Shown: positions 1 through 19,384 of the stretch, piece by piece
How the letters are laid out: every line of letters starts with the position of its first letter
Numbering within the stretch: the first letter of the stretch is position 1
IMG/VR virus record: IMGVR_UViG_3300025146_000072
Location: 1-22,746 of that record
From: a virus
Direction: 5' to 3' (one strand)
Length of the DNA stretch: 22,746 nt
Made by a program: the position numbers and the translations under genes
The notes under the pieces: model-generated
Told to the model about the DNA's origin: nothing
The model's database searches: none
Seen by the model: only the letters and a program-made list of their open reading frames with translations

Positions 1-3
1 AAT

Positions 4-381
4 ATGAACCCACGAAATGCAAAAGCGGCTTTCCGCCACCACGAGAAAAAAATGGCGGAGCTCCGGGACAAGACCAACCTGGATGCCAACTCAATGCTCG
101 ACGTTATCAACGAGGGCACCCTTCACATGGTCGAACATTTTAGCCGGGCCATCGGTCCGCAATATAAGCGCGACTATGTGTTCGTTATGGGCAAGGCGTT
201 CCTGGGAACTGAAAAGGCTGACCCAGCCCAGGACGTCCAGGCGTGCTCGTTTTTCCATTGCGGCGATATCCACGAGTGGTCCCATGACCTGGCGGATCTT
301 ATGGCCGCGGAGCCAGCGATCCACGACCATGTGATGCACGCGATCCACATTTATCACCTCAACAAACTGACAGGCAAATGA
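4..381 (+). CDS. Hypothetical phage protein, possibly 5'-truncated by the window edge
   Basis: This frame encodes 125 residues. I do not recognise a family. The protein is rich in histidine and acidic residues, with a His/Asp/Glu-rich stretch at about residues 86-120 (HCGDIHEWSHDLADL, then several HxxH-like spacings). These could bind metal, but no established catalytic motif is visible. It looks soluble, with no signal peptide or membrane segment. Only three bases precede the ATG in the window, so the true start could lie further upstream. Its end overlaps the next start by four bases (ATGA), which implies co-transcription and coupled translation. Confidence 0.75.
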   Translation: MNPRNAKAAFRHHEKKMAELRDKTNLDANSMLDVINEGTLHMVEHFSRAIGPQYKRDYVFVMGKAFLGTEKADPAQDVQACSFFHCGDIHEWSHDLADLMAAEPAIHDHVMHAIHIYHLNKLTGK

Positions 382-638
382 AAATTTTCAAGTACCCCGT
401 AACGATCAGCGACGACCAGAACGTCGTGATGCCCGCGGGCGCGCAAATCTTAACCGTCCAGATCCAGGGACGGACACCGGTGCTCTGGGCTCTGGTTGAT
501 GAAACCGGTCTGCCGACGCAACGGCGCATCGAAGTGCATGGAACCGGCAACCCGATCCCGGAAGGAAAGCGTCAATATATCGCCACGATACAGACCCACC
601 AGGGCCAGTTCGTGTGGCACTTCTTTGAACGCTTTTAA
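378..638 (+). CDS. Small phage protein, DUF7352-like
   Basis: The product has 86 residues. It starts MKIFKYPV, followed by a beta-rich pattern with VMPAGAQILTVQIQG at about residues 17-31 and a closing FVWHFFERF. This arrangement (MKI-F-KYP, then 'MPxGAxIL-VQ', then 'WALVD') matches small phage proteins I know as the DUF7352 type, whose function is not known. The start overlaps the upstream stop by four bases. A 43-base gap separates it from the next gene. The family assignment is from memory of the sequence pattern. Confidence 0.75.
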   Translation: MKIFKYPVTISDDQNVVMPAGAQILTVQIQGRTPVLWALVDETGLPTQRRIEVHGTGNPIPEGKRQYIATIQTHQGQFVWHFFERF

Positions 639-666
639 AAGTTAATGGAAAGTTTTTTTATATTGC
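633..666 (+). promoter_or_regulatory. Weak candidate promoter upstream of the 682 gene
   Basis: A TATATTGC at 659-666 resembles the Bacteroidetes -7 element TAnnTTTG imperfectly. A T4 run at 633-636 lies 22 bases upstream in place of the -33 TTTG. The -7 ends 15 bases before the ATG at 682. The stretch TGGAAAGTTTTTTTATATT at 646-664 also partly resembles the promoter-proximal blocks at 5069 and 10796. The match is weak. Confidence 0.3.
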
Positions 667-681
667 GCCAAATCTAAGTAC

Positions 682-963
682 ATGACGACACCGAAAAAAG
701 CGAGTAAGGTCCGGCACGCCCGGACCATTGCGCTCGAACTACACAAGCAATGGCGGACCCTGGAGCGAAAGGGCGACGCGGATAAATTGGCGACCATCCT
801 GGAGGTATCAAAGCCCACCATCGACAAAGCACTCATTTACGGCTGCGTACACCAGCAGAAAATCGTGGACGGTATAACCAAATTTTTCGCCGATCGCATC
901 CTGGCCGAAAAGGAAAGCGCCCAGGGCCTAAAAGACCTAGCATCACAAACCCCAAACTCTTAA
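682..963 (+). CDS. Small putative helix-turn-helix protein
   Basis: The product has 93 residues and is basic at the N terminus (KKASKVRHAR). Residues about 30-55 contain KGDADKLATILEVSKPTIDKAL, which reads like a helix-turn-helix: a helix, a short turn, then a 'SKPTIDKAL' recognition-type helix. A transcription or replication regulator is plausible. It precedes the recombination genes and ends three bases before the next ATG, so the two are probably co-transcribed. The HTH reading is inferred from pattern only. Confidence 0.7.
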   Translation: MTTPKKASKVRHARTIALELHKQWRTLERKGDADKLATILEVSKPTIDKALIYGCVHQQKIVDGITKFFADRILAEKESAQGLKDLASQTPNS

Positions 964-966
964 CCA

Positions 967-1911
967 ATGACAGACAACGCAAACAAAGAAGCCGAAAAGA
1001 CCGAAACCGTCACCGCGGAGGTCATCCAGGAAACAGCCATATCGCTGATCACCAAAGCCGAGATCGATATGCAAATCAGCACGGCCCAGGCGTTCCCGCG
1101 GTCCATGCAAAAGTTCCTGCAACAAGCAAGGGAAATGGCCACCCTGACCGTCGAGATCGCGGAAAGTTGCGCCTATTCATTGCCCAGGGGAGGCAAATTC
1201 GTCGAGGGTCCATCGGTTCGCCTGGCTGAAATCGTGGCCAGCTGTTACCACAACCTTCGCACGGGCGCGCGCGTAATATTCAACGACGGCAAAGTGATCA
1301 CCGCCCAGGGTATCGTTCACGACTTGCAAAAGAACATCATGCACACCGAGGAGGTCCAGCGGTCCATCCAGCAGAATGAATGGGAGCCAGATCCGAACAA
1401 GCCAGGCAAGAACCGGAAAACCGGGCGCATGATCCCTATGACCGAGGACATGCAAATCGTCACCGGCCGGGCGGCGTGCGCGATCGCTTACCGCAACGCT
1501 GTTTTTAAAGTGGTCCCTGCGGCCATTATCCAGGACCTGTACGAACTGGTAAAGGAAACCGCCAAAGGGACCGCCGAAACCCTGGTGGCCCGCCGTGAGA
1601 AAGCTATGGCCTATTTCCGCGGCCTGGGCGTTAAGGACGAGCAAATATTCCAGATCCTGGAGGTGAAAGGACTGGCCGACATAGGGCTCGACGAACTGCA
1701 AAAGCTGACCGGCATGCGCGCGGCCATCAAGAACGGGGAGGCCACGATCGAAACGCTGTTTTTCACGCCTGACCCAAAAAGCAAAGCCGACAACGCGACC
1801 AAAAAGACCGAGGACAAGCTGAACAAAACCGGCAACAAGGCAAAGGACACGGCCGCGGCGATGGATGACAAATTGAAAGGCGGCGCCGACGGTACACCAC
1901 CAGCCAGTTAG
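967..1911 (+). CDS. Candidate single-strand annealing protein (phage recombination partner)
   Basis: The product has 314 residues. It carries the block LPRGGKFVEGPSVRLAEIVA at about 73-92, then NLRTGARV, a VITAQGIVHDLQKN strand pair at about 114-127, and TGRAACAIAYRNAVFKVVP at about 161-179. I recognise this as a common phage protein usually left unannotated. The order of beta strands followed by a conserved 'GRAAC-A-RNA-F-VVP' helix resembles the Rad52/Erf-type annealing fold, but I cannot prove this. It is directly upstream of a YqaJ-like exonuclease, the classic partner of an annealing protein. The last 45 residues are a low-complexity Lys/Asp/Ala tail, probably disordered. The gene is certain; the function is inference. 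Confidence 0.85.
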   Translation: MTDNANKEAEKTETVTAEVIQETAISLITKAEIDMQISTAQAFPRSMQKFLQQAREMATLTVEIAESCAYSLPRGGKFVEGPSVRLAEIVASCYHNLRTGARVIFNDGKVITAQGIVHDLQKNIMHTEEVQRSIQQNEWEPDPNKPGKNRKTGRMIPMTEDMQIVTGRAACAIAYRNAVFKVVPAAIIQDLYELVKETAKGTAETLVARREKAMAYFRGLGVKDEQIFQILEVKGLADIGLDELQKLTGMRAAIKNGEATIETLFFTPDPKSKADNATKKTEDKLNKTGNKAKDTAAAMDDKLKGGADGTPPAS

Positions 1912-1912
1912 G

Positions 1913-1936
1913 TATTGCATCCGTGCAATATTTTTG
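1913..1936 (+). terminator. Hairpin with T tract directly after the 967-1911 gene
   Basis: TATTGCA at 1913-1919 and TGCAATA at 1924-1930 form a perfect seven-base inverted repeat with a four-base loop, followed by TTTTTG. It begins two bases after the stop codon at 1911. The stem is A/T-rich, so as a terminator it would be weak; it could instead be an operator for the downstream nuclease gene. Confidence 0.45.
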
Positions 1937-2023
1937 TTTACTTTACCCGCAATACATTAAGGGCCAGCCAGACGGCGAATCCGGGCAGCCCTGTATTTTT
2001 ACAATAATCACGAAAATCACGGC

Positions 2024-3052
2024 ATGAAAAAACACATCGAACTCATCCCCACGGCTGGGATGGACCGGGACCAGTGGCTCTCTTATCGTCACTCCGGGAT
2101 CGGCGCCAGCGAGGTCGGTTGCGTCCTGGGCCTGGACGATTACACCAGCTCCCTGGAGCTTTACTATTACAAAATTGGCGAGGTCCCTAAGTTCGACCTG
2201 GAAAACATGGCCAAATTTATCGGCAAGATCGACGAGCCGAAAATTGCGAAAATGTGGCAATACTGGGACCCGGCCACGCAGGACGAGCTGACCATGATCC
2301 GCAACTTCCAAATGGGTAAGGTCGTCCGCCGATGCCAGCGCGTCACCGCGTACGTCCGCAACCCAGCCTACCCCTGGTTATTCGTTTCCCTGGATCGAAA
2401 AATAAACAAGTACGACCACCGTGGCGAGGGCACCCTGGAGCTGAAAACAATCGGCGGCTGGGAGGCCGACAAATGGGACGCCGGGCTGCCGCCCAAATAC
2501 ATCACCCAGGTGAACACCCAGATGCTGGTGTGCGAGTTCCTGTTCGGGGAAATGGCACTGCTCCAGGATAACCGCCGGTTTTTTGTGTACCCGTTCGACC
2601 GGTCCGATAACATTGCCAACCACATCGTGAACCGGACAAAGGACTTCTGGGACCGGGTGGTGGCTGGCCGAAAGCTGGTAAATGAAAAATTCCACTGTAT
2701 GACGACCTTCAACGAGAAGCGCATCCAGGAGCTGAACCACGAAATCGACGCCCTGGCGCCCGAACCTGATGGCACGCTGGCCTACGCGGACTTCCTGGCC
2801 GACCGGCATGGAAAGCCGACGCGCCTGGAAAGGAAGGGCAGTATAATCGAGCTGGATTTTGCCAAAGCACACCGCGACGCCAGCGATCGACTGAAAGAGA
2901 TCCAGGAAATAAAGACCCTGAACGAAAACAATTTGAAACGCGCGATGGCCGACACCCAGTGCCTGGACTTTGGAACGGATGGCAAGGTGTACTGGTCCAC
3001 GACGCCCAGCGGGTCCCGGATCTTTCGCAATAAGTTAAAAACTCGTGCATAA
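2024..3052 (+). CDS. YqaJ-like / lambda-exonuclease-type recombinase nuclease
   Basis: The product has 342 residues. It is a PD-(D/E)XK exonuclease of the YqaJ viral recombinase type, which would resect double-stranded phage DNA to give single strands for annealing. Residues 25-50 carry the family start motif (SGIGASEVGCVLGL, then the LELYYYKIGE helix). Catalytic candidates are D124 in SLDRK, E139 and K141 in LELKT, and the QVNTQ helix at 162-166. Its length is usual for the family. The C-terminal third (about 225-300) is helical and probably accessory. It follows the candidate annealing protein after a 112-base gap with a hairpin. The start is the only well-placed ATG ahead of the motif. The family call is strong. 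Confidence 0.92.
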   Translation: MKKHIELIPTAGMDRDQWLSYRHSGIGASEVGCVLGLDDYTSSLELYYYKIGEVPKFDLENMAKFIGKIDEPKIAKMWQYWDPATQDELTMIRNFQMGKVVRRCQRVTAYVRNPAYPWLFVSLDRKINKYDHRGEGTLELKTIGGWEADKWDAGLPPKYITQVNTQMLVCEFLFGEMALLQDNRRFFVYPFDRSDNIANHIVNRTKDFWDRVVAGRKLVNEKFHCMTTFNEKRIQELNHEIDALAPEPDGTLAYADFLADRHGKPTRLERKGSIIELDFAKAHRDASDRLKEIQEIKTLNENNLKRAMADTQCLDFGTDGKVYWSTTPSGSRIFRNKLKTRA

Positions 3053-3112
3053 CTACCTCCAAATGTGTGGAAAACGGCTTTTTTGCCGTGGGCGCTTTGT
3101 TCATTGTTTACA

Positions 3113-3240
3113 TATATTCGCCGCCCATCTTTGTTGTGATCATAATGACCACGCCCTGGAATTAGGGCCGGATCGTGGCCAATTTCACAGCCTCACAAAC
3201 CCTGGCCGCTGGTGCCCTAATCACCGCTGCCGGGTTTTTT
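3113..3240 (+). promoter_or_regulatory. Structured leader or small RNA before the replication gene
   Basis: The 193-base gap 3053-3245 has no gene. A TATATTCG at 3113-3120 resembles a -7 box, although no well-spaced TTTG lies upstream (the nearest, at 3096, is only 13 bases away). Downstream, CCAC 3149-3152 and GCCCT 3153-3157 pair with AGGGC 3164-3168 and GTGG 3175-3178. The segment then runs into the terminator hairpin at 3199-3240. This is either a cis-acting attenuated leader or a small RNA of roughly 110 bases. There is also a small ACGGC-T6-GCCGT hairpin at 3074-3089. Confidence 0.35.
3199..3240 (+). terminator. Rho-independent terminator / attenuator before the 3246 gene
   Basis: ACCC 3199-3202 and GGC 3204-3206 pair with GCCGGGT 3229-3235, with T3203 bulged. 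An inner helix pairs GC 3208-3209 with 3226-3227 and GGTG 3211-3214 with CACC 3222-3225, leaving a seven-base loop. A T run follows to 3240. The T run ends five bases before the ATG at 3246, so readthrough would directly control that gene. Confidence 0.65.
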
Positions 3241-3245
3241 ATTTT

Positions 3246-4223
3246 ATGCGACCAAAATACTCAAACGACGGCGGCAGCTTTTTGCTGATCCGTGACGAGC
3301 ACCTCCTGATCACTGGCGGCAATATCGTGGCCGCTGCACTGATCCACATTTTTGAACATTGGCACTATCACAAGGTCGCCAACGGCCACCAGAACAAGGA
3401 GGCCAATGAGACGGCTGAACGCCACGGGGATCAACGAACGATGCCGGAAAGTCTTTACCAATGGCACACCACTGAAAGCCTGGAATCACAGTTAAAAGGT
3501 TTGGGATCTAAGCGAACCATCCAGGAGGCCCGGCAGCTATTGGAGGACCTGGGCGTGATCACTGAACACCGCAACCCGAACCCCCGCTACACATTCGACC
3601 GGACAATCCATTTCCTTTTTTACCCGAACGTGGTGGCCGAACTGCTCCTCCTGAAGGACCAGGTGAGCGCTCCATCGGCACAAATGAGCCAACGGGAGGA
3701 CCAATCGGGTCAATATCCATATATATCTTCCATAAATAACCCCATAGATGACTCCACAGATAGTGCTGCCGCTGGCGCGACAGTGGATAAAAAGCCGGAC
3801 ATAAAACCGGACAAAAAGAAAAAAGCACCAGGCGCCGGGACCGATCAGGACTGGCAGCGGTGGGTGGATGCCTGGCATGAATTTTTTAAAGGGCGTCACG
3901 AAGGTATCGAGCCCATGTGGAACGGTGCAAACCTGGCCAGCCTGAAAAAATTGCGCGCGTACCTTTGCAAGATCGCCACCCAGGTGGACGGTAAGAGCCG
4001 AGACGATTGCGGGTTCGGTGCCTGGTCGTTCATCCTGGAAAACTGGGACCTGCTGGACGAATGGCAGCGCGGACAGTTCGACCTCGGCGTCGTTTATCAA
4101 AAAATTTCTAACATTCTAACCCAGATAAAAAATGGAACCAACACGAATAGGGGCGCTCATGCCAGTGGCAACGGAAAAGTTAGCCCTGGTGCCGCAAGGT
4201 TCGAGGCAATTAAAAACTATTGA
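3246..4223 (+). CDS. Winged-helix replication-initiation-type protein
   Basis: The product has 325 residues. Residues about 20-130 look like a winged helix: LLITGGNIVAAALIHIFEHW, then KGLGSKRTIQEARQLLEDLGVI (recognition-helix pattern at about 84-105), then a RYTFDRTIHFLFYPNV wing. A polar Ser/Lys-rich linker at about 140-190 leads to a helical C-terminal domain with conserved tryptophans (DWQRWVDAWHEFF, then WSFILENWDLLDEW). This layout fits phage replication initiators and helicase-loader adaptors of the DnaD-like kind. I chose the ATG at 3246 because an upstream open stretch runs through the hairpin leader. It overlaps the next gene. The specific role is inferred. Confidence 0.85.
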   Translation: MRPKYSNDGGSFLLIRDEHLLITGGNIVAAALIHIFEHWHYHKVANGHQNKEANETAERHGDQRTMPESLYQWHTTESLESQLKGLGSKRTIQEARQLLEDLGVITEHRNPNPRYTFDRTIHFLFYPNVVAELLLLKDQVSAPSAQMSQREDQSGQYPYISSINNPIDDSTDSAAAGATVDKKPDIKPDKKKKAPGAGTDQDWQRWVDAWHEFFKGRHEGIEPMWNGANLASLKKLRAYLCKIATQVDGKSRDDCGFGAWSFILENWDLLDEWQRGQFDLGVVYQKISNILTQIKNGTNTNRGAHASGNGKVSPGAARFEAIKNY

Positions 4224-4668
4224 CCACGAGGACAGCTTCGGGCTGGCCGTGAATGATCAACGCCTGGCGCAAACCGGGGAGCCTGGTCTTAAAAATGCTT
4301 TGCAGTACGTGTTCGCCCTGGTGGGATTGCGGTCGGTACCGGTCGGTCCTGAAAAGGAATTTTTGCACCAGTACATCCTGAAAAATTACGCTGGCCATAC
4401 ACCCGCCGAGATACAGCTGGCCTTCGACATGGCGGTGCAGGGTCAGCTGGATCTGGACCCGCGGGACGTCCGGTGTTATGAAAATTTCTCGGTGATCTAT
4501 TTCGCCACCATTATGCGCGCCTACCGCGCGTGGGCGAGTGACCAGGCCCGTCGCCTGGAGCGAGTGGCTGAACCACAAAAGCCGACTCCAGAACAGATCC
4601 TCACCATCAACATCGAGTACGCTTTTTACCTTTTTTCACTGGTCAATAAATTACCCGTCAAGCTATGA
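4132..4668 (+). CDS. Hypothetical replication-module protein
   Basis: The product has 178 residues if it starts at 4132. A second ATG at 4159 has an AGGGG nine bases upstream and is at least as likely. The core at about residues 52-135 is helical: ALQYVFALVGLR, then FLHQYILKNYAGHTPAEIQLAFDMA, then YENFSVIYFATIMRAYRAW. I recognise the 'NY-xHT-EI-LAFDMAV-G-L' pattern from Bacteroidetes phage genomes, where it often follows a replication initiator, but I know no proven function. A helicase-loader or replisome accessory role is possible. It overlaps the preceding gene by 92 bases (65 if the second ATG is used) and the next by four. Confidence 0.8.
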   Translation: MEPTRIGALMPVATEKLALVPQGSRQLKTIDHEDSFGLAVNDQRLAQTGEPGLKNALQYVFALVGLRSVPVGPEKEFLHQYILKNYAGHTPAEIQLAFDMAVQGQLDLDPRDVRCYENFSVIYFATIMRAYRAWASDQARRLERVAEPQKPTPEQILTINIEYAFYLFSLVNKLPVKL

Positions 4669-5066
4669 GCAAAGGCATGTTAAAAGACAAGATGAACCCG
4701 CAGGAATTTCGCGATTACCTGGCGAAAGTGGAGGCCGGTAAACTGTCAAAGTACAAGGCCATCCCGACCGAAACCGCCGACGGTCAAAAATTCCGGTCCA
4801 AATTGGAGGCGACGTATTACAACCGCGTCCGGCTATTGCAAACCCAGGGCGACCTGATAAAGTTCGAGCGGGAGGTCCGGTTCGAGCTGATCGTCAACGG
4901 GCTGATGGTTTGCGCGTACGTGTGCGACTTTATCCTTTACTGGAAAGATGGCCGGATCGAACACATCGACTGCAAAAGCCAGGCGACGATGACCCCGATT
5001 TATTCGATCAAAAAGAAGCTCATGATGGCGGTCCACGGGATCGAATTAAAGGAGGTGTACGAATAA
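4665..5066 (+). CDS. DUF1064-like PD-(D/E)XK nuclease
   Basis: The product has 133 residues. The pattern KYKAIPTETADGQKFRSKLEATYYNRV (about 29-55), then LIKFEREVRFELI, then VCDFILYWKDGRIEHIDCKS (about 86-105) and YSIKKKLM fits DUF1064. These are small phage nucleases with the PD-(D/E)XK fold, thought to act on branched or replication DNA. Candidate active residues are the Glu in KLEAT, the Asp in VCDF, and the Asp-x-Lys in HIDCKS. The start overlaps the upstream stop (ATGA). Its position in the replication block is consistent with a junction-processing role, which is inference. Confidence 0.85.
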   Translation: MSKGMLKDKMNPQEFRDYLAKVEAGKLSKYKAIPTETADGQKFRSKLEATYYNRVRLLQTQGDLIKFEREVRFELIVNGLMVCAYVCDFILYWKDGRIEHIDCKSQATMTPIYSIKKKLMMAVHGIELKEVYE

Positions 5067-5068
5067 TC

Positions 5069-5111
5069 TGGAAACTTATTTTGTATCTTAAACAATGTCT
5101 TTTTATATTCA
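5069..5111 (+). promoter_or_regulatory. Bacteroidetes-type promoter for the 5128 gene
   Basis: The 19-base block TGGAAACTTATTTTGTATC at 5069-5087 contains a -33 TTTG at 5080-5083. After 20 bases comes TATATTCA at 5104-5111 as the -7 box. A near-identical block (17/19) lies at the same distance before the 10856 gene. The -7 ends 16 bases before the ATG at 5128. Confidence 0.55.
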
Positions 5112-5127
5112 CCAAAATTTTTACACG

Positions 5128-6591
5128 ATGGCAAAAGCAGCAAAGAAAAAAGGGCCAGCCTCCGGCGTGCAGGAAGCCCACACCATTGACGTCGAGCACG
5201 AGGTCATTGAAACCACAACCGCAACGAACAAGGAAAACGGCGGCGCGATCCTGGTGGACGACCAGACGCGCATTAAAATGGAAATCGCAAAGCTGAACGT
5301 CGCCGACGCCGGTATTGCGGTCCTGAAGGAAAAATACGGTACCCTGGTCATCGCCGACGCCAGCGACAAAAAGGGCTACGAAGCCGTTAAGAAAGCATGG
5401 AACGAGGTCAGATCCACTCGCACGGCGCTGGAAAAAAAGGGCCTGGAAATTCGCAACCAGTTCAAAGTAATTACCACGGCCGTCAAAGCCGAGGAGGAGC
5501 GACTGATCGAAAGCCTGGACCCGCTGGAAACTGACCTTTATAAAAAGTGGAAAGCCATCGACGACGAAAAGGAACGGGCCAAAAAGGAACAGGAGGAGGC
5601 CGAACAGAAACAGCTCATGGCCCGCGTTGAGGAGGTCCAGACCCTGGGCATGGCTTTCAAAGATGGTTTTTACCAGATAGGCGACACGATCGCGGTGGAC
5701 GTGGCCAGCCTTCGCATGTATAACGACGAACAGTACGCAAAGCTGAAAGGCGCCATCGATGCAAAGAAAAAAGAGCTCGACAAGATCGCCGCCGATGCCG
5801 CTGAAAAATTGCGCCTGGAAAATGAACAGCGCCAGAAGGAACAGGACGACCTCAAGCGCCAGCAGGATGACCTGAAAAAACAACAGGACCAGCTGCGCGA
5901 ACAGCAGGAACAGCTGAAACGTGACCAGGATGCCGCCGCTAAAATCAAACGGGACAACCGGATCAATAAACTGGTGGCCCTGGGCATGACTTACAACGAG
6001 CGCACTGATCTGTTCGTGCACGATAACGGGTTCAGGACTACCACCCACGGCGGCGCGGATCTGTTCTCCCTGGACGATTACGGGTTCGACGAACATGCGA
6101 AAATTATCGCCGGTCACATCACGGACAACATTGCCGACAAGGCAAAACACGACCAGGAGGTGGAAGCTGAACGCCAAGCCCTGGAGAATCACAAAAAGTT
6201 CATAGCCGCCACGATGGACCGCGCCGGGCTTAATTTTTCATACACCGCCCAGTCGTTTACCTGGGAGGACAAGAACACTGCCATCGAGGTCACGTTCGCC
6301 GAACTGATCCCGCTGACCGAGCCGGAAGTTTCCGAAAAGGCCCAGGCAATCCAGGCCCAGATCGAGGAGGCCAAAAAGGCAACCGCCGCGGCTGATAAAA
6401 AAGCCAAAGACGCCGCAGACAAAGAGGCGAAACTGGCCCTCGGTGACAAGGAACGATATCAGCAGGAACACTCAGCCATCGGTGCTGCGGCGCTGAAAAT
6501 GGTGCCGGGTGAATTTAAGACCAAAAAGTACCAGCAACGTGCCCAGAACTTTCTGGACAGATTAAGCAACCTTTTAATGGAATTTCAATAA
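5128..6591 (+). CDS. Coiled-coil protein, DUF1351-like
   Basis: The product has 487 residues. After a short polar start (MAKAAKKKG) and a Glu/Thr-rich stretch, residues about 45-155 carry the DUF1351-like helical pattern (YGTLVIADASDKKGYEAVKK, RTALEKKGLEIRNQF, ESLDPLETDLYKKW). A long coiled coil at about 205-275 includes four consecutive heptads of the form DDLKxQQ/DQLREQQ. The C terminus (about 350-430) is again Lys/Ala/Glu-rich. Function is unknown; homologues sit among phage recombination genes. An ATG at 5095 is in frame but lies between the -33 and -7 boxes, so 5128 is the better start. It ends one base into the next start codon. Confidence 0.88.
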   Translation: MAKAAKKKGPASGVQEAHTIDVEHEVIETTTATNKENGGAILVDDQTRIKMEIAKLNVADAGIAVLKEKYGTLVIADASDKKGYEAVKKAWNEVRSTRTALEKKGLEIRNQFKVITTAVKAEEERLIESLDPLETDLYKKWKAIDDEKERAKKEQEEAEQKQLMARVEEVQTLGMAFKDGFYQIGDTIAVDVASLRMYNDEQYAKLKGAIDAKKKELDKIAADAAEKLRLENEQRQKEQDDLKRQQDDLKKQQDQLREQQEQLKRDQDAAAKIKRDNRINKLVALGMTYNERTDLFVHDNGFRTTTHGGADLFSLDDYGFDEHAKIIAGHITDNIADKAKHDQEVEAERQALENHKKFIAATMDRAGLNFSYTAQSFTWEDKNTAIEVTFAELIPLTEPEVSEKAQAIQAQIEEAKKATAAADKKAKDAADKEAKLALGDKERYQQEHSAIGAAALKMVPGEFKTKKYQQRAQNFLDRLSNLLMEFQ

Positions 6592-6803
6592 TGCCAACCT
6601 GCGCCTTCCCCCTTTGCAACCGGCACGCCGAAAAAAACGGGTATTGTGTCGGCCACCGGATCTACGCCGCCGACCAGGCGGGTGGAAAGTCCAACGCGTC
6701 GAAACCCAAACCGGAGCCCGGTGAAAAAAAAAACCCCGTAAGCGGATCAAAACAAAGTCAAAAAAGCTCGCCAGCCGGGAGCGCCAGTATAAAAAAATCG
6801 TGA
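6591..6803 (+). CDS. Upstream half of a split HNH-like gene (zinc-knuckle N-terminal part)
   Basis: Read without shifting, this frame gives 70 residues. Residues 4-21 form a small metal-binding pattern: C4, C9, C18 and H21 in CAFPLCNRHAEKNGYCVGH. A polar Lys/Pro/Ser linker follows. After about residue 48 the reading becomes Ser/Gln-rich and loses protein-like character, while the -1 frame becomes convincing (KRIKTKSKKLASRERQYKK) and continues into the HNH-like domain. The switch coincides with a run of ten A's at 6724-6733. Joining the frames by -1 at A AAA AAC gives one 142-residue protein whose layout (N-terminal zinc knuckle, basic linker, HNH-like core) matches single-gene proteins of other Bacteroidetes phages, as I recall them. 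Confidence 0.75.
   Translation: MPTCAFPLCNRHAEKNGYCVGHRIYAADQAGGKSNASKPKPEPGEKKNPVSGSKQSQKSSPAGSASIKKS
6713..6734 (+). other. Candidate -1 frameshift site (A AAA AAC) in an A10 run
   Basis: In the frame of the 6591 gene the codons read GAA AAA AAA AAC, so A AAA AAC occupies 6728-6734 as a canonical X XXY YYZ slippery heptamer. GGAG at 6713-6716 lies about 12 bases upstream, as in dnaX-type bacterial frameshift sites, although Bacteroidetes ribosomes use such signals little. I see no strong stimulatory hairpin just downstream, only a weak GCTC/GAGC pair near 6766-6782. Transcript slippage, a real mutation, or a homopolymer sequencing error would look the same. Confidence 0.6.
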
Positions 6804-7018
6804 CGGAAATGCTGGCTTTGTCCCAGGTGTGCGAACTTAACACGCCGGATTGCACCAGGGAGGCGCAGGGATTACATCACATGAAAGGCCGCGGGGTCCA
6901 TTTACTTAACCGCAAATTTTTAAAGCGCGCATGTAACGCATGCAACGGGTACGTCGAAAGGCACCCGGCCTATGCCCTGGAGCATGGGCTATCGGTCAGT
7001 CGGCACACAAAACAGTAA
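6800..7018 (+). CDS. Downstream half of the split gene: HNH-like endonuclease domain
   Basis: From a GTG at 6800 this gives 72 residues, but the protein-like frame extends back to 6725, just after an in-frame TGA at 6722-6724, with no ATG in between. This makes production by frameshift from the 6591 gene likely. The core shows C11 and C18, then LHHMKGRG, then N-R-KFLKRACNACNGYVERHP: paired CxxC zinc ligands, a His-His and a terminal His, as in HNH/recombination endonucleases. The usual CxxCH is CNACN here, so one canonical histidine is replaced. A role in nicking or processing phage DNA would suit the neighbouring recombination genes. Activity is not assured. Confidence 0.75.
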   Translation: MTEMLALSQVCELNTPDCTREAQGLHHMKGRGVHLLNRKFLKRACNACNGYVERHPAYALEHGLSVSRHTKQ

Positions 7019-7046
7019 TTTTTTTATTCACATTTAATCCTCAATT

Positions 7047-7763
7047 ATGGACATCAAAAAGCTACGGCTCCACAAGATGAAAAACGGCAACGGCCTGGAG
7101 TTGTCGATCGAACGATCCGGCAACGTCGGCGACAAAGTGACCTGCCTGGAAATCCACAAGGCCATCGTTCACAATGACCTTTATAATGCCGTCCAGGCGC
7201 TCGCGGTCCACCTGGCGATCATGGCCTTCCACGTTAAGGACAACGAGGTCGAGGACATTGCGATGCCAGACCCCGCCCGGTTCAAAGATTTTTCCTGCGG
7301 TTCTTACAGTATCAGCGGCGAGGAAGAAAAGCGCGGCATCATTATCAGCGGGACCCTGCGCAAAGGTGGCAAGGCCCACAATTTCAACACCCCGTTTTAT
7401 CGGTTCGAGGAGCCAGACTCCGGCCGGTATGCTTTTATGGGCGACCTGGAGGCCCGTTTGCGCGTGATTGAAACCGAGGTGATCGCTTACCTGGATGGTG
7501 TTAAACGTGGCGAAGCTATTCAGCCTGAACTTGGCGAGGGAGGTGCACCAGTTACAAAAATGAAAATCGCGCCGGATCTGACCGATGAAAAAGCCACGGC
7601 CGAGGGCAACCTGGTGAAAGGAAAGGACCGCGATAAGTATGCGAACAAGGACGCGATGGCCCGCGTCGCTGAAATGGAAAACGGCGACGGTAAAAAGAAG
7701 CCATCCGGTAAAAAGAAAGTTCAGCAAACAGCGGCCACACCGTCCGGGGAGGTGGAGCAATAA
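7047..7763 (+). CDS. Hypothetical phage protein
   Basis: The product has 238 residues and I do not recognise a characterised family. Residues about 1-150 are mixed alpha/beta: KLRLHKMKNGNGLELSIERSG, a helical AVQALAVHLAIMAFH at about 50-64, then FSCGSYSISGEEEKRGIIISGTLR and a LEARLRVIETEVIAYLDG helix. The last 80 residues are Lys/Asp/Glu-rich, probably disordered, with two basic KKK clusters. No signal peptide or membrane segment is seen. It is separated from the HNH-like gene by 28 A/T-rich bases. Its stop overlaps the ATG of the first methyltransferase (TAATG), so the two are translationally linked. It could be an accessory nucleic-acid-binding protein, which is a guess. Confidence 0.8.
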   Translation: MDIKKLRLHKMKNGNGLELSIERSGNVGDKVTCLEIHKAIVHNDLYNAVQALAVHLAIMAFHVKDNEVEDIAMPDPARFKDFSCGSYSISGEEEKRGIIISGTLRKGGKAHNFNTPFYRFEEPDSGRYAFMGDLEARLRVIETEVIAYLDGVKRGEAIQPELGEGGAPVTKMKIAPDLTDEKATAEGNLVKGKDRDKYANKDAMARVAEMENGDGKKKPSGKKKVQQTAATPSGEVEQ

Positions 7764-8461
7764 TGGACAAGCTCGAACGCAACAAGATCTACCAGATGGA
7801 CTGCCTGGACGGGATCAAAGGGATCGAATCGAACAGCGTCAAGCTGATCGTGTCCGACCCGCCTTACTTTCTGGGCATGACCCACAACGGCCAGCGCGGC
7901 TCGTTCGTGGATCTGGCGATCTGTAAACCCTTTTACAAAGAACTTTTCCAGGAATATAAGCGCATCCTGCGGCCCGATGGCGAGGTCTATTTTTTCAGTG
8001 ACTGGCGCGGATATGCTTTTTATTACCCGCTGTTTGATGCCATCCTGGGCTGCAGGAACCTGATCGTGTGGGACAAGGTGGCCCGGCCTGGGTCCTTTTA
8101 TTCCTTTCAGCATGAGTTTATCCTGTTCCATTGTGTGGATAATTCCACGACTAAAAAGGGCGGCAATGTATGGCGGTCCAAAGGGTTCAGCGCCGGGGCT
8201 AAATCCACTAACGGCGAAAAGGTCCACACCACGCAGAAAACCCTGGAAATAATCGAGAAGATCGTGGTGGAAAACAGCAAGCAGGGCGACCTGGTGGTGG
8301 ATACGTTCGGCGGATCTGGGACCACGGCCGTGATATGCAAAAAGACCGGGCGCGATTACATAGTTTTTGAACTGGACGAGGACAACTTCGATATAAGTCA
8401 GCGACGCGCCGCGCTGTCAGTCCAGGACACGATGTTCAAAAACAGGGGGGAGCGGGAATGA
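7763..8461 (+). CDS. DNA amino-methyltransferase (DPPY, beta-type order)
   Basis: The product has 232 residues. It carries catalytic motif IV SDPPYF with DPPY at residues 32-35, and the AdoMet-binding motif VVDTFGGSGTT at about 178-188 near the C terminus. That order (catalytic motif first, AdoMet motif last) is beta-class. HTTQKTLEI at 155-163 is the motif X-type helix, and IVFELDED at 200-207 follows motif I. It would transfer methyl groups to adenine N6 or cytosine N4. No separate target-recognition domain or restriction gene is present, so it is probably an orphan phage enzyme that protects the genome. It overlaps the next methyltransferase by four bases. Confidence 0.92.
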   Translation: MDKLERNKIYQMDCLDGIKGIESNSVKLIVSDPPYFLGMTHNGQRGSFVDLAICKPFYKELFQEYKRILRPDGEVYFFSDWRGYAFYYPLFDAILGCRNLIVWDKVARPGSFYSFQHEFILFHCVDNSTTKKGGNVWRSKGFSAGAKSTNGEKVHTTQKTLEIIEKIVVENSKQGDLVVDTFGGSGTTAVICKKTGRDYIVFELDEDNFDISQRRAALSVQDTMFKNRGERE

Positions 8462-9147
8462 TCAGCGAGGTTTATAACCGGGATTGCATGGTGAACATGG
8501 GCTGCTACCCCGATGGGTTCTTTGACCTGGCGATCGTTGACCCGCCCTACGGGATCGACGCCAGCAATATGAAACTCGGAGAGGGTGGCGGCCTGTACCG
8601 TGCCCCTAAAACTTACAAGCGGGGAAACTGGGATAAGGAACCACCAGATCCCGAATACTTCCGCCAGCTGTTCAGGGTGGCCAAAGACGTGATAATTTTC
8701 GGCGCTAATCATTTCATAAGTCGCCTCCCACCGGATCGCCAGGATGCCAGCTGCTGGGTCGTGTGGGATAAGAACAACGGCGAGACATCATTCGCCGACG
8801 TGGAGCTGGCCTGGACATCGTTCGACCGTCCCGCGCGGATGGTCAAGTACACATGGTCCGGCTTTATCCAGGGCCGGATGGGTGACGAAAAGGAGGACAA
8901 AATTCACCCGACACAAAAACCCGTTTATTTATACCGGTGGCTCCTGAACAAATTCGCGGCGACTAAGGACGGGATTATCACCCACCGCAAAATATTGGAC
9001 ACCCACATGGGCAGCCAGTCGTCCAGGATCGCGGCCCACTTTCTGGGCCTGGACTATTACGAGTGGGAAATCGACCCGGACTACTTTGCGGAGGGCAATA
9101 AGCGATACGCCGAGGAAACAGCCCAGCAGTCACTTTTCAACTTTTAA
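8458..9147 (+). CDS. Second DNA amino-methyltransferase (DPPY, beta-type order)
   Basis: The product has 229 residues. DPPYGID starts at residue 28, the KIHPTQKPVYLYRWLL helix at 149-163 is the motif X-type segment, and ILDTHMGSQSSRIAA at 179-193 is the AdoMet-binding loop. This last motif departs from the usual F-x-GxG and is typical of a phage methylase subgroup I know from Bacteroidetes genomes. An aromatic segment (SCWVVWDKNN at about 98-107) probably lines the base pocket. Sequence differences from the first enzyme suggest a different target. The genes are coupled by an ATGA overlap. Target sequence cannot be read from the sequence. Confidence 0.92.
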   Translation: MISEVYNRDCMVNMGCYPDGFFDLAIVDPPYGIDASNMKLGEGGGLYRAPKTYKRGNWDKEPPDPEYFRQLFRVAKDVIIFGANHFISRLPPDRQDASCWVVWDKNNGETSFADVELAWTSFDRPARMVKYTWSGFIQGRMGDEKEDKIHPTQKPVYLYRWLLNKFAATKDGIITHRKILDTHMGSQSSRIAAHFLGLDYYEWEIDPDYFAEGNKRYAEETAQQSLFNF

Positions 9148-9149
9148 TC

Positions 9150-10112
9150 ATGAGCGTCACAACGATCGAATGGACAAAAAGACCGGGGACCGTCGGCGAA
9201 ACGTGGAACCCCACCACCGGTTGCAATAAGGTGGACCGCGGCTGCAAAAATTGCTACGCCGAAATAATGCACAAGCGCCTCCACGCAATGGGCCAGGCTA
9301 AGTATGCCGCCCCTTTCCTGGATGGTGCGAAACCACACCAGGACACCCTGCACATACCGATGGGATGGACAAAGCCGCGCACGGTGTTCGTCAATTCAAT
9401 GAGCGACCTGTTCCATAAGGATCTGGCGTTCGAGTTCATCCTGGAGGTTTTTCAGGTCATGCAACTGACCCCTTACCACACCTACCTGGTCCTCACAAAG
9501 CGCCCGGAGCGCGCCCTGGAGTTCTGGCAATGGATGAAAGAAAAGCAACGCCAGGAAAGTGGTGCGCATGGTGAAGCCTGGCGTCCGCCGCTGAACCTTT
9601 GGCTGGGCACCAGTGCCAACGACCAGGAAAGTGCGAACAAACGGGTGCCGATCCTTTTAAAAATTAAAGGGGTCCTCCGTTTCCTTTCCTATGAACCAGC
9701 GACCGGCGGCCTGGATCTGACCAGGATCGAGCCGAGCGTCTTTACGCCTACGATCAACGCGCTGACCGGTGTGACCACCTTCGGCGATTACGTGGATCGT
9801 GACCACCCACGGCTCCACTGGGTCATATGTGGAGGCGAAAGCGGTCCCAAAGCGGTGCCGATGCATCCCGCGTGGGCGCGACGCGTGCGCGACGATTGCC
9901 AGGCTGCTGGCGTCCCTTTTTTCTTTAAACAGTTCGGGGCCTGGGCGCCGTTCACTTTCCTGGATGCCGAGGGCGTGCCGCGGCTGAACTTTGCCAACGA
10001 TAAAAAAGTTTTTACATTCACCGAGCCAGGCCAGAACATGATCAAGGTCGGAAAGCATAAGTCCGGCCACGAACTCGATGGCCAGGTCTGGCAACAATTT
10101 CCAACCACATAA
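9150..10112 (+). CDS. Phage Gp37/Gp68 family protein (DUF5131)
   Basis: The product has 320 residues. Its start (TTIEWTK, ETWNPTTGCNKVDRGCKNCYAE) is diagnostic for the Gp37/Gp68 (DUF5131) family. Cysteines at 25, 32 and 35 form C-x6-C-x2-C, which could hold an iron-sulphur cluster; the fold is thought to be radical-SAM-like, though chemistry is not established. Further family blocks are VFVNSMSDLFH, YLVLTKRPERALE, WVICGGESGPKAVPMHPAWAR and FFFKQFGAW, in the usual order and length. It starts two bases after the second methyltransferase, so a link to DNA or nucleotide modification is reasonable inference. Confidence 0.92.
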   Translation: MSVTTIEWTKRPGTVGETWNPTTGCNKVDRGCKNCYAEIMHKRLHAMGQAKYAAPFLDGAKPHQDTLHIPMGWTKPRTVFVNSMSDLFHKDLAFEFILEVFQVMQLTPYHTYLVLTKRPERALEFWQWMKEKQRQESGAHGEAWRPPLNLWLGTSANDQESANKRVPILLKIKGVLRFLSYEPATGGLDLTRIEPSVFTPTINALTGVTTFGDYVDRDHPRLHWVICGGESGPKAVPMHPAWARRVRDDCQAAGVPFFFKQFGAWAPFTFLDAEGVPRLNFANDKKVFTFTEPGQNMIKVGKHKSGHELDGQVWQQFPTT

Positions 10113-11170: not shown

Positions 11171-11857
11171 ATGCAACTGGTCATCAATTTCAGCGGAGGA
11201 AAGGACAGCACTGCAATGCTGGCCTTCCTTTGTGAAAAATATCCCGACGTCCCGAAGCGTGTCATCTTTGCCGATACCGGCTGGGAACACGCCGGGACGG
11301 AGGACTGGTGCCGCCAGCTGGTGGCCATGTTCGGCCTTACCCTGGACGTGTGCCGGTCGAACACTAAGACCTTCCTATCCATGAGCGAAAGCCGTGGAAT
11401 GTTCCCAGGGATGCAGCAGCGCCAGTGCACCAGCGACCTGAAACGTGACCCGATAAAAAGCTGGATCATTAACAACATAACGGACCCGGTGGTGATCAAC
11501 TGCATGGGCATCCGGTCGGAGGAAAGTCCGAACCGGGCGAAAGCTAAAACGCTGGCCAGGAATAAGCGCCAGACGAACAGCCGCCGGACAGTTTGGGATT
11601 GGAACCCGATCAAAGACTGGACCGAGGCCCAGGTGTTGCAATACCTGGCGGACCGTGGGCTCCCATTGCATCCGGTCTATTCGTACCTGCGGCGGTTTTC
11701 GTGTCGAATGTGCATCTACATGACCCAGCGCGATCGTGAACAGGTGCAAAAACATGACCCGGAGGCGGTCCAGATCATTCACAAGCTGGAGCAAAAAATC
11801 GGGTTTTCTTTTTTCCAGGACGGCTACCTGGCCGACCTTTTAAACTTACCCAAATGA
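11171..11857 (+). CDS. PAPS-reductase / PP-loop ATPase-like protein
   Basis: The product has 228 residues. It has an N-terminal PP-loop SGGKDS at 8-13, ADTGWEH at about 34-40, QRQCTSDLKRDP at about 83-93, GIRSEES at 113-119 and WNPIKDWTEAQVLQYL at 144-159, the recognised order of phosphoadenosine phosphosulfate reductase-like proteins. Cysteines C86, C178 and C181 are placed to ligate a cluster or metal. Phage members of this family are common and usually unassigned; some relatives (DndC type) act in DNA sulphur chemistry. It overlaps the next gene by four bases. Whether this one reduces PAPS or adenylates something else cannot be told from sequence. Confidence 0.9.
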   Translation: MQLVINFSGGKDSTAMLAFLCEKYPDVPKRVIFADTGWEHAGTEDWCRQLVAMFGLTLDVCRSNTKTFLSMSESRGMFPGMQQRQCTSDLKRDPIKSWIINNITDPVVINCMGIRSEESPNRAKAKTLARNKRQTNSRRTVWDWNPIKDWTEAQVLQYLADRGLPLHPVYSYLRRFSCRMCIYMTQRDREQVQKHDPEAVQIIHKLEQKIGFSFFQDGYLADLLNLPK

Positions 11858-17856: not shown

Positions 17857-17888
17857 TTTGATTGGTATCAAAAATGATACTATATTTA
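17857..17888 (+). promoter_or_regulatory. Island promoter with a palindromic operator in the spacer
   Basis: TTTG at 17857-17860, then exactly 20 bases, then TATATTTA at 17881-17888 matches the Bacteroidetes promoter in seven of eight -7 positions. The spacer contains GTATCA (17865-17870), AAAA, TGATAC (17875-17880), a perfect inverted repeat touching the -7 box. A protein bound there would block transcription. The XRE-type protein at 18643 is the obvious candidate repressor. Confidence 0.65.
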
Positions 17889-17944
17889 ATATATCAATTC
17901 AAACAAAAAGAGGCGGCAACTCTATAATCACGGCGAAAAACAAA

Positions 17945-18169
17945 ATGACTACAATTAATAAAATTCCGTCTGAAGTTTCTTCAGCAATTCACAACAATCG
18001 TTTAGTTTCAAAAAGAGTGCAGGAACTTAGAGAAAAAGGCTTCTACGTTGCAGAAAGAAGAATGGGTGCCGGTGGTGTTTTTCAGTTTAAAACAGTAGGG
18101 AAAGAAACACGCATCCAAATTGGATACGGACATGGTCGTTATAATTATGCAATGTGTGTAATCCTTTAA
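17945..18169 (+). CDS. Island gene 1, small hypothetical protein
   Basis: The product has 74 residues from the ATG at 17945. An upstream in-frame ATG at 17858 falls inside the promoter and is rejected. The protein is basic: a helical first half (KIPSEVSSAIHNNRLVSKRVQELREKG) and a beta-like second half (YVAERRMGAGGVFQF, TRIQIGYGHGRYNYAMCVIL). No family is recognised. It is the first gene behind the island promoter and 10 bases before gene 2. Size, basic charge and an adjacent XRE regulator would suit a toxin-like or inhibitory protein, but nothing in the sequence proves it. Confidence 0.7.
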   Translation: MTTINKIPSEVSSAIHNNRLVSKRVQELREKGFYVAERRMGAGGVFQFKTVGKETRIQIGYGHGRYNYAMCVIL

Positions 18170-18179
18170 ACTTTTCAAT

Positions 18180-18641
18180 ATGCAAATAGAATATTTACAA
18201 GGAGAAAACGCCCTGAGAAATTCGGGGCATCCTTTAAACGAAGGTGAAGCATTTGTTTTCGTTGATGGGAAGCAAGTGAAAAATGAAATTATAGACAGAT
18301 TTGATATTAAGGGTTACTATGTTGGCGAACGTGTAACAGGATTGACCGGAAAATTAATTGTAAACCTTTATAAAATTTCTATTGATTTAATCGAAAAGTT
18401 TAATGAGCATGTTCCTGGATTAAAGTTTACTGATTTAGATGATAAAGAAAGTTATATTGAATTTGCTCTAATACCTTCAACTGTTCATCAATTTGATGGA
18501 TCAACCAAAGACGATTGGTATATCAGCGAAAGATTAAATGATGAAATGTATACCCGTCCTTCAAAAAGATATAAATCAAAAATGCAGCGACTTAATAAAG
18601 AATGGGGCGAAAGTGAGATTAATAACGAACAAGCAAATTGA
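18180..18641 (+). CDS. Island gene 2, hypothetical protein
   Basis: The product has 153 residues. It is acidic, beta-rich early (EAFVFVDGKQVKNEIIDRF, YYVGERVTGLTGKLIVNLYKI at about 43-63) then helical (LIEKFNEHVPGL), and ends in a charged Lys/Arg/Glu helix (KRYKSKMQRLNKEWGESE). I recognise no toxin, kinase or nuclease motif. It lies one base before the XRE-type regulator gene. Gene 1 and gene 2 both contain a 'GxYVxER' pattern (GFYVAER in gene 1, GYYVGER in gene 2), which hints at a shared ancestor or common structural element. Confidence 0.75.
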   Translation: MQIEYLQGENALRNSGHPLNEGEAFVFVDGKQVKNEIIDRFDIKGYYVGERVTGLTGKLIVNLYKISIDLIEKFNEHVPGLKFTDLDDKESYIEFALIPSTVHQFDGSTKDDWYISERLNDEMYTRPSKRYKSKMQRLNKEWGESEINNEQAN

Positions 18642-18642
18642 T

Positions 18643-18855
18643 ATGACAGACAAACAACTTAATGAAGATCGTTTAAAAATAGCCGCATTCATTCAAAAAA
18701 GACGTAACGAATTAGGCATTTCACAGGCTGCACTTGCTGAACTAACAGGAATGGGAATTGCTACTATTAAAAGGTTTGAAAGTGGTAAATTCTGGCTTAA
18801 CATGAAGCAATATATTTTACTTCGGAACGCATTACAGTTGCCTACTTCTTTTTAA
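18643..18855 (+). CDS. Island gene 3, XRE-type helix-turn-helix regulator
   Basis: The product has 70 residues. Residues about 12-60 show the XRE pattern: IAAFIQKRRNELGISQAALAEL, then TGMGIATIKRFESGKFW, then a closing LLRNALQLP. The Ser-Gln-Ala-Ala-Leu-Ala-Glu helix and the following TIKRFESGK recognition helix are clear. The ATG at 18643 is used because an earlier in-frame start lies within the preceding gene. It is last in the island operon and is the natural candidate to bind the palindrome at 17865-17880, giving autoregulation. The right inverted repeat begins at its stop codon. Confidence 0.88.
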   Translation: MTDKQLNEDRLKIAAFIQKRRNELGISQAALAELTGMGIATIKRFESGKFWLNMKQYILLRNALQLPTSF

Positions 18856-18871
18856 TTTCTCCCCTCAATTT
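18853..18871 (-). repeat. Right inverted repeat of the AT-rich island
   Basis: The inverted partner of 17815-17833 (17/19). It starts with the TAA stop of the XRE-type gene, so the repeat is part of the gene end. Confidence 0.6.
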
Positions 18872-18882
18872 TGTTTTATAAA

Positions 18883-18914
18883 GTCACTGCCCGAAAGAGC
18901 AGACTGGTAGTGGC
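18883..18914 (+). other. Hairpin right of the island
   Basis: GTCACTGCC at 18883-18891 pairs with GGTAGTGGC at 18906-18914 over nine bases, including two G-U pairs, with a 14-base loop. No T tract follows, so it is not a standard terminator. The GTGGC end is part of the outer inverted repeat whose left half is GCCAC at 17786-17790. Confidence 0.4.
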
Positions 18915-18931
18915 TTGCTTGCAACAACACT

Positions 18932-19384
18932 ATGACAGGTGCACAACTTATCGCCGACGAACGGCGCGAACAGATCTACCGACACAAACGGACCATCGCC
19001 AACGACGTGGCCACGAACACCAGCAACGAACTTGAAACAGCGGCGCAACGATTACTCACCCAGGTGCTGGGAAAGAGCGGGCACTATCCGGCGTGGCCCG
19101 AACACTGGGACGCGGCCATTTGCGACAAGATGGACGCAAAGACCGACTTCGAAAAGATCCAGATCGCTGGCGCTTTCCTGGCCGCGGCCCTGGATCGTCG
19201 AATGGCAACCGGCTGCGGACCCGGCAAAGCCTACGACGAATTTACCCAGGCGGTCCGGCCGCTGATCGAGTACCTGGCCCAGAACCATCACCCACACCAC
19301 ACGGCGATCGTCACCAACACCGGCGCCGAATTATTGGAGGGCCAGAAATCGACCGGCAAGATCATGGACTACATACAAGACTGA
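18932..19384 (+). CDS. Hypothetical phage protein
   Basis: The product has 150 residues. It begins TGAQLIADERREQIYRHKRTIANDV, then ELETAAQRLL and YPAWPEHWD, and carries a central helical region (EKIQIAGAFLAAALDRRMATG). The opening 'LIAxERxEQIxxHxRT...DV' is a pattern I recall in many Bacteroidetes phage proteins of unknown role. It begins six bases after the outer repeat CTTGCAACA (18918-18926), so its own promoter may have been displaced when the AT-rich island arrived. Composition is again phage-like. A terminator follows downstream. Confidence 0.78.
   Translation: MTGAQLIADERREQIYRHKRTIANDVATNTSNELETAAQRLLTQVLGKSGHYPAWPEHWDAAICDKMDAKTDFEKIQIAGAFLAAALDRRMATGCGPGKAYDEFTQAVRPLIEYLAQNHHPHHTAIVTNTGAELLEGQKSTGKIMDYIQD

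Follow-up and report, generated by a model that had tools for sequence, protein, structure and literature searches.

A small gene in a 22,746-base viral sequence (IMG/VR virus record IMGVR_UViG_3300025146_000072, analyzed whole and referred to here as the window) is divided between two overlapping reading frames that meet at a run of ten adenines (A10). Judged from homology, this is one ancestral gene, coding for a zinc finger followed by a basic helix and an HNH-like region, that is interrupted at A10. The interruption probably results from a change in the length of the run, either a real indel or polymorphism or an artefact of assembly or sequencing, and not from programmed frameshifting; between a real indel and an artefact, we lean slightly to the former. 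Either would be of little consequence in itself. Where two frames meet inside a long A run, finding a slippery heptamer in frame says little about recoding; the comparison with homologues is what decides.

Two reading frames and the A10 run

The features of the interrupted gene are listed in Table 1. In the -1 frame, TGA at 6722–6724 precedes an open stretch that starts at 6725 and terminates with the stop codon at 7016–7018, so that this TGA and the end of ORF1 confine any frame switch to positions 6725–6800. Within this interval, the junction was assigned to A10 by homology, using a profile of 46 relatives from which the window sequence was left out: the fusion of the two frames at A10 scores 106 bits, whereas ORF1 alone scores 3 bits. 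The A7 run was considered as an alternative ancestral junction and rejected, given that fusion at this position scores 86 bits. Similarity of the -1 frame to the family begins with ...KPRKRIKTKSKKLASRERQY, right after A10 (compare PRKPIKKKSLKQCSRERQY in the relative L088). Residues 1–26 of ORF1 match the closest relative, L009, at 79% identity over 24 residues, and the ORF1 tail after position 6734 has no match to the family. The joined protein consists of 48 + 94 = 142 amino acids.

ORF1 parses the run as GAA AAA AAA AAC, which places A_AAA_AAC in frame. The initial annotation was accurate in its description of the locus: a -1 change of frame at ten A's, this heptamer within ORF1, a joined protein of 142 residues, and an upstream GGAG, which is located 11 bases before the heptamer. 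The presence of A10 alone is unremarkable, such a run being found in 31 of 100 dinucleotide shuffles and in about 50% of synonymous recodings of the window's genes; for the Glu-Lys-Lys-Asn stretch itself, A10 arises in 20% of recodings. What goes beyond chance is the coincidence of the frame change with the run, rather than the run itself.

Table 1. Features of the interrupted gene (window coordinates)
Feature	Positions	Strand	Comment
ORF1	6591..6803	+	70 aa; zinc-finger part, then out-of-frame tail after A10
Putative zinc finger, C-x4-C-x9-C-x2-H	6600..6656	+	C4, C9, C19, H22; conserved in L009 and Pan5
Second A_AAA_AAC	6632..6638	+	Middle of the zinc-finger part
GGAG	6713..6716	+	Proposed Shine-Dalgarno-like stimulator; judged not functional
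A10 run	6724..6733	+	Frame-change site; only run of at least 9 identical bases in the window
-1 frame	6725..7018	+	Basic linker, long helix, HNH-like part; 105-bit match to the profile of 46 relatives
A_AAA_AAA within A10	6725..6731	+	In frame
A_AAA_AAC within A10	6728..6734	+	In frame
A7 run	6791..6797	+	Second candidate junction with in-frame A_AAA_AAA, just before the ORF1 stop
Possible reinitiation ORF	6800..7018	+	GTG at 6800 (GTGA overlap with the ORF1 stop) or ATG at 6809
HNH-like core	6830..6943	+	C81, C88, H96-H97, C115-x2-C118 (joined-protein numbering); little or no variation at these columns in 41–42 relatives

Intact relatives and the predicted protein

Relatives of the gene were read from 79 viral contigs (46 non-redundant) and were additionally found in Pseudanabaena phage Pan5 and in one Bacteroidota MAG. 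None of the 79 is split; all are continuous, as are the Pan5 and MAG copies, and the A runs in the 46 non-redundant relatives do not exceed 8 bases. An internal stop flagged in L089 lies outside the true ORF, and the L088 gene is continuous and intact. In the closest relative, L009 (57–60% identity), the gene is unbroken, the junction lacks a run and the neighboring genes are the same; this orthologue in the same neighborhood, along with the score of the A10 fusion, bears out the earlier reading of zinc finger, basic linker and HNH-like region, in that order, as one gene. Homology spans the linker, the helix, the HNH-like core and the conserved C/C/HH/C-x2-C residues (105–106 bits), by which the window copy is identified as an interrupted homologue of the family of zinc-finger plus HNH-like proteins that includes L009, Pan5 and the other relatives. 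Some family members consist of the HNH-like part only, without the zinc finger; a zinc-finger frame was sought upstream of these relatives, and none was found in another frame. In L018, the zinc finger is encoded in the gene's own frame, upstream of the first ATG.

The Pan5 protein (UXO94086.1, HNH endonuclease-like; 34–38% identity) has the same order of zinc finger, basic linker and HNH-like region, but is encoded by one continuous ORF without A10, whereas the window copy is broken and has Asn in place of His after C-x2-C. The residue that follows C118 is His in most relatives, and CN is found also in L009, L016 and L075. Profile comparisons yielded weak matches only: the zinc finger matched Pfam Zf_WRKY19 below the cut-off (E=0.0006), the -1 frame matched PHROG 740 (phrog_740, E=0.0013), and the best matches in a PDB profile search were Cascade subunits (8zp9/8yb6, E=0.002); this Cascade subunit carries an HNH domain.

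The structure of the L009 protein was modeled with AlphaFold2 from an alignment of 41 sequences (mean pLDDT 91.5). The model contains a zinc-finger segment at the N-terminus that includes a helix at residues 21–31, followed by a long helix at 44–63 that is conserved in the family, with nearly invariant S, K, Y and R residues and pLDDT values of 96–98. A strand at 80–83 bears the HH pair, and is followed by a strand at 97–100 and a helix at 102–110 beside C-x2-C, an arrangement that resembles a small beta-beta-alpha-metal (HNH-like) core. A Foldseek search of the PDB with this model yielded nothing significant. From sequence and model together, the intact product would be a small DNA-binding protein or putative nuclease composed of a zinc finger, a basic helix and an HNH-like core; nuclease activity is considered only putative given the replacement of His by Asn after C-x2-C.

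Indel or artefact versus recoding and reinitiation

Under the reading that we consider probable, the length of the homopolymer formed by the lysine codons of a single ancestral gene changed, breaking the frame, so that normal translation would yield a 70-aa product, the zinc-finger part followed by junk residues, and most of the HNH-like part would be lost. If the change is real, the phage population would carry an indel or polymorphism, probably of recent origin, and a minority of transcripts may regain the frame by incidental slippage of RNA polymerase on A10. This reading is supported by the location of the junction exactly at the only long run in the window, and by the relatives, with L009 intact without a run and the other frames continuous with shorter runs. 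The -1 frame contains no stop and retains the conserved residues of the family, as would be expected of a recent or artefactual break. Singleton, homology-supported frame transitions are mainly sequencing errors or indels according to the GeneTack authors (PMC3711429), and long A runs are hypermutable through replication slippage (PMC1088944). The gene resembles the slippage-rescued 'pseudo-pseudogenes' (PMC1088944) in being broken at a long A run across which slippage could restore the frame, but differs from them in that it is known, run length included, from assembled contig sequence alone.

Apart from the window, the split occurs only in contig L005, which has the same A10, and a scan of the collection with a 23-mer from the gene itself found only this contig. 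It is 100% identical to the window over positions 1–9188 (9188 bp), and the contig ends differ. Recovery of the same A10 from a separate assembly makes an artefact less likely, provided that the reads are independent; A10 was thus assembled twice, but may have come from the same reads, and many IMG records in the number range of L005 are presumably re-assemblies. The undecayed HNH-like frame counts against an indel or artefact, as does the distance to the nearest intact relative, which is only ~60% identical and thus leaves room for recoding confined to this lineage.

Such recoding, recently gained at A10 by transcriptional slippage or -1 frameshifting and supplying both products in a host blind to Shine-Dalgarno sites, appears unlikely, and nothing specific supports programmed recoding in this lineage; if true, A-run recoding in such a phage would be a rarity. 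Functional transcriptional slippage, whereby RNA polymerase would stutter on A10 and produce mRNAs of mixed lengths from which the phage would use both a zinc-finger protein and the fusion, requires no ribosomal stimulator and fits the undecayed HNH-like frame; furthermore, many bacteria show slippage on A runs once these reach about 9 bases, and it is by such slippage that 'pseudo-pseudogenes' are rescued (PMC1088944). However, the run is conserved in no relative and incidental slippage does not equal function, so we consider this version improbable. Programmed -1 ribosomal frameshifting on A_AAA_AAA or A_AAA_AAC, yielding a zinc-finger-only protein and a zinc-finger/HNH-like fusion, was the proposal of the initial annotation, and it is not supported by comparison with the homologues, which are intact without a comparable A run, the finding that the initial annotation had itself named as a refutation: neither the frame transition nor the slippery site is conserved. 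In its favor are the in-frame heptamers and the GGAG, the spacing of which suits a dnaX-type stimulator. The heptamer at the junction is nevertheless weak evidence, since a long A run brings it along (every run of at least 9 A's supplies an in-frame A_AAA_AAA) and unbroken relatives have it too: A_AAA_AAN heptamers occur in the continuous frames of 11 of the 46, and the gene itself contains four in frame, including one in the zinc finger at which a -1 shift would terminate at TGA 6722. A_AAA_AAC is used by some IS elements of bacteria, in one case without an established stimulator, but this heptamer has low efficiency in E. coli, because bacterial ribosomes poorly tolerate re-pairing from AAC to AAA (PMC4066793); the better shifter would be A_AAA_AAA, one codon earlier in the run. 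As for stimulators, Shine-Dalgarno matches of at least 4 bases are depleted at the gene starts of the window (4 of 33 starts, picked by eye, versus 31% of random positions), and ribosomes of Bacteroidia sequester the anti-Shine-Dalgarno tail and ignore Shine-Dalgarno sites (PMC9976891). With the phage genes showing no Shine-Dalgarno use, as in Bacteroidota, GGAG is not credible as a stimulator, and in a search for downstream RNA structure the segments folded no better than shuffles (z = -0.05, -0.66 and +0.14). The locus is like dnaX and the IS1/IS3 elements (PMC4066793, PMC3711429) in its overlapping frames with an in-frame A_AAA_AAN at the junction, but unlike them in that the site is not conserved, can draw on neither a Shine-Dalgarno site nor an RNA structure as stimulator and owes its heptamer to the A run. 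Taken as a whole, this evidence makes programmed frameshifting very unlikely.

Equally remote is the production of two separate proteins by translational coupling, with ORF1 translated and the second frame reinitiated at GTG 6800 or ATG 6809. Both start codons are present, contrary to the initial annotation, in which no ATG follows the site in the second frame; the GTGA overlap with the nearby ATG would suit coupling, and HNH-like-only relatives exist, most of them without an upstream zinc-finger frame. A start at 6800 or 6809, however, drops most of the helix that the relatives keep and lowers the profile score from 105 to 80 bits. In addition, positions 6734 to 6800 of the -1 frame are still family-like, which suggests that this segment was translated as protein until recently.

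The phage and the gene neighborhood

By sequence, the window looks like part of a tailed phage of Bacteroidota, given that its terminase matches those of Bacteroides, Flavobacterium and Cellulophaga phages, among others, that Shine-Dalgarno-like sites are depleted, and that a relative of the HNH-like gene is present in the Bacteroidota MAG. The latter was detected by scanning genomes with the family alignment, which yielded no further relative among 395 genomes of the phylum of that MAG. Contig L005 (positions 1–2138) adds 2138 bases to the upstream end of the window and could be used for lengthening it.

The broken gene is preceded by a gene for a 498-aa protein without an assigned function, the stop codon of which overlaps the ORF1 start (TAATG), and is followed by a gene at 7047–7763; relatives of both flank the intact copy in L009, in the same order. 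Genes for a RecE-like exonuclease and a Holliday-junction-resolvase-like protein are also neighbors of the broken gene, which suggests that its product may act in the recombination or processing of phage DNA. The gene at 378–638 lies 6 kb upstream of the broken gene, whereas its L009 relative (3378–3653, 35% identity) is immediately downstream of the intact HNH-like copy; this difference in position points to a rearranged gene order between the two phages.

Two adjoining DNA methyltransferase genes with overlapping ends occupy 7763–9147. The early region of the phage further encodes a DUF5131 protein (9150–10112, E=2e-85) and a PAPS-reductase-like protein (11171–11857, E=4e-23). A low-GC island at 17858–18855 (36% GC in 18001–19000 versus ~55% elsewhere) encodes two small proteins without assigned functions and a helix-turn-helix protein (HTH_3, E=3e-9, with a weak match to the MqsA antitoxin), and looks like an acquired cassette, possibly a toxin-antitoxin module or a regulator.
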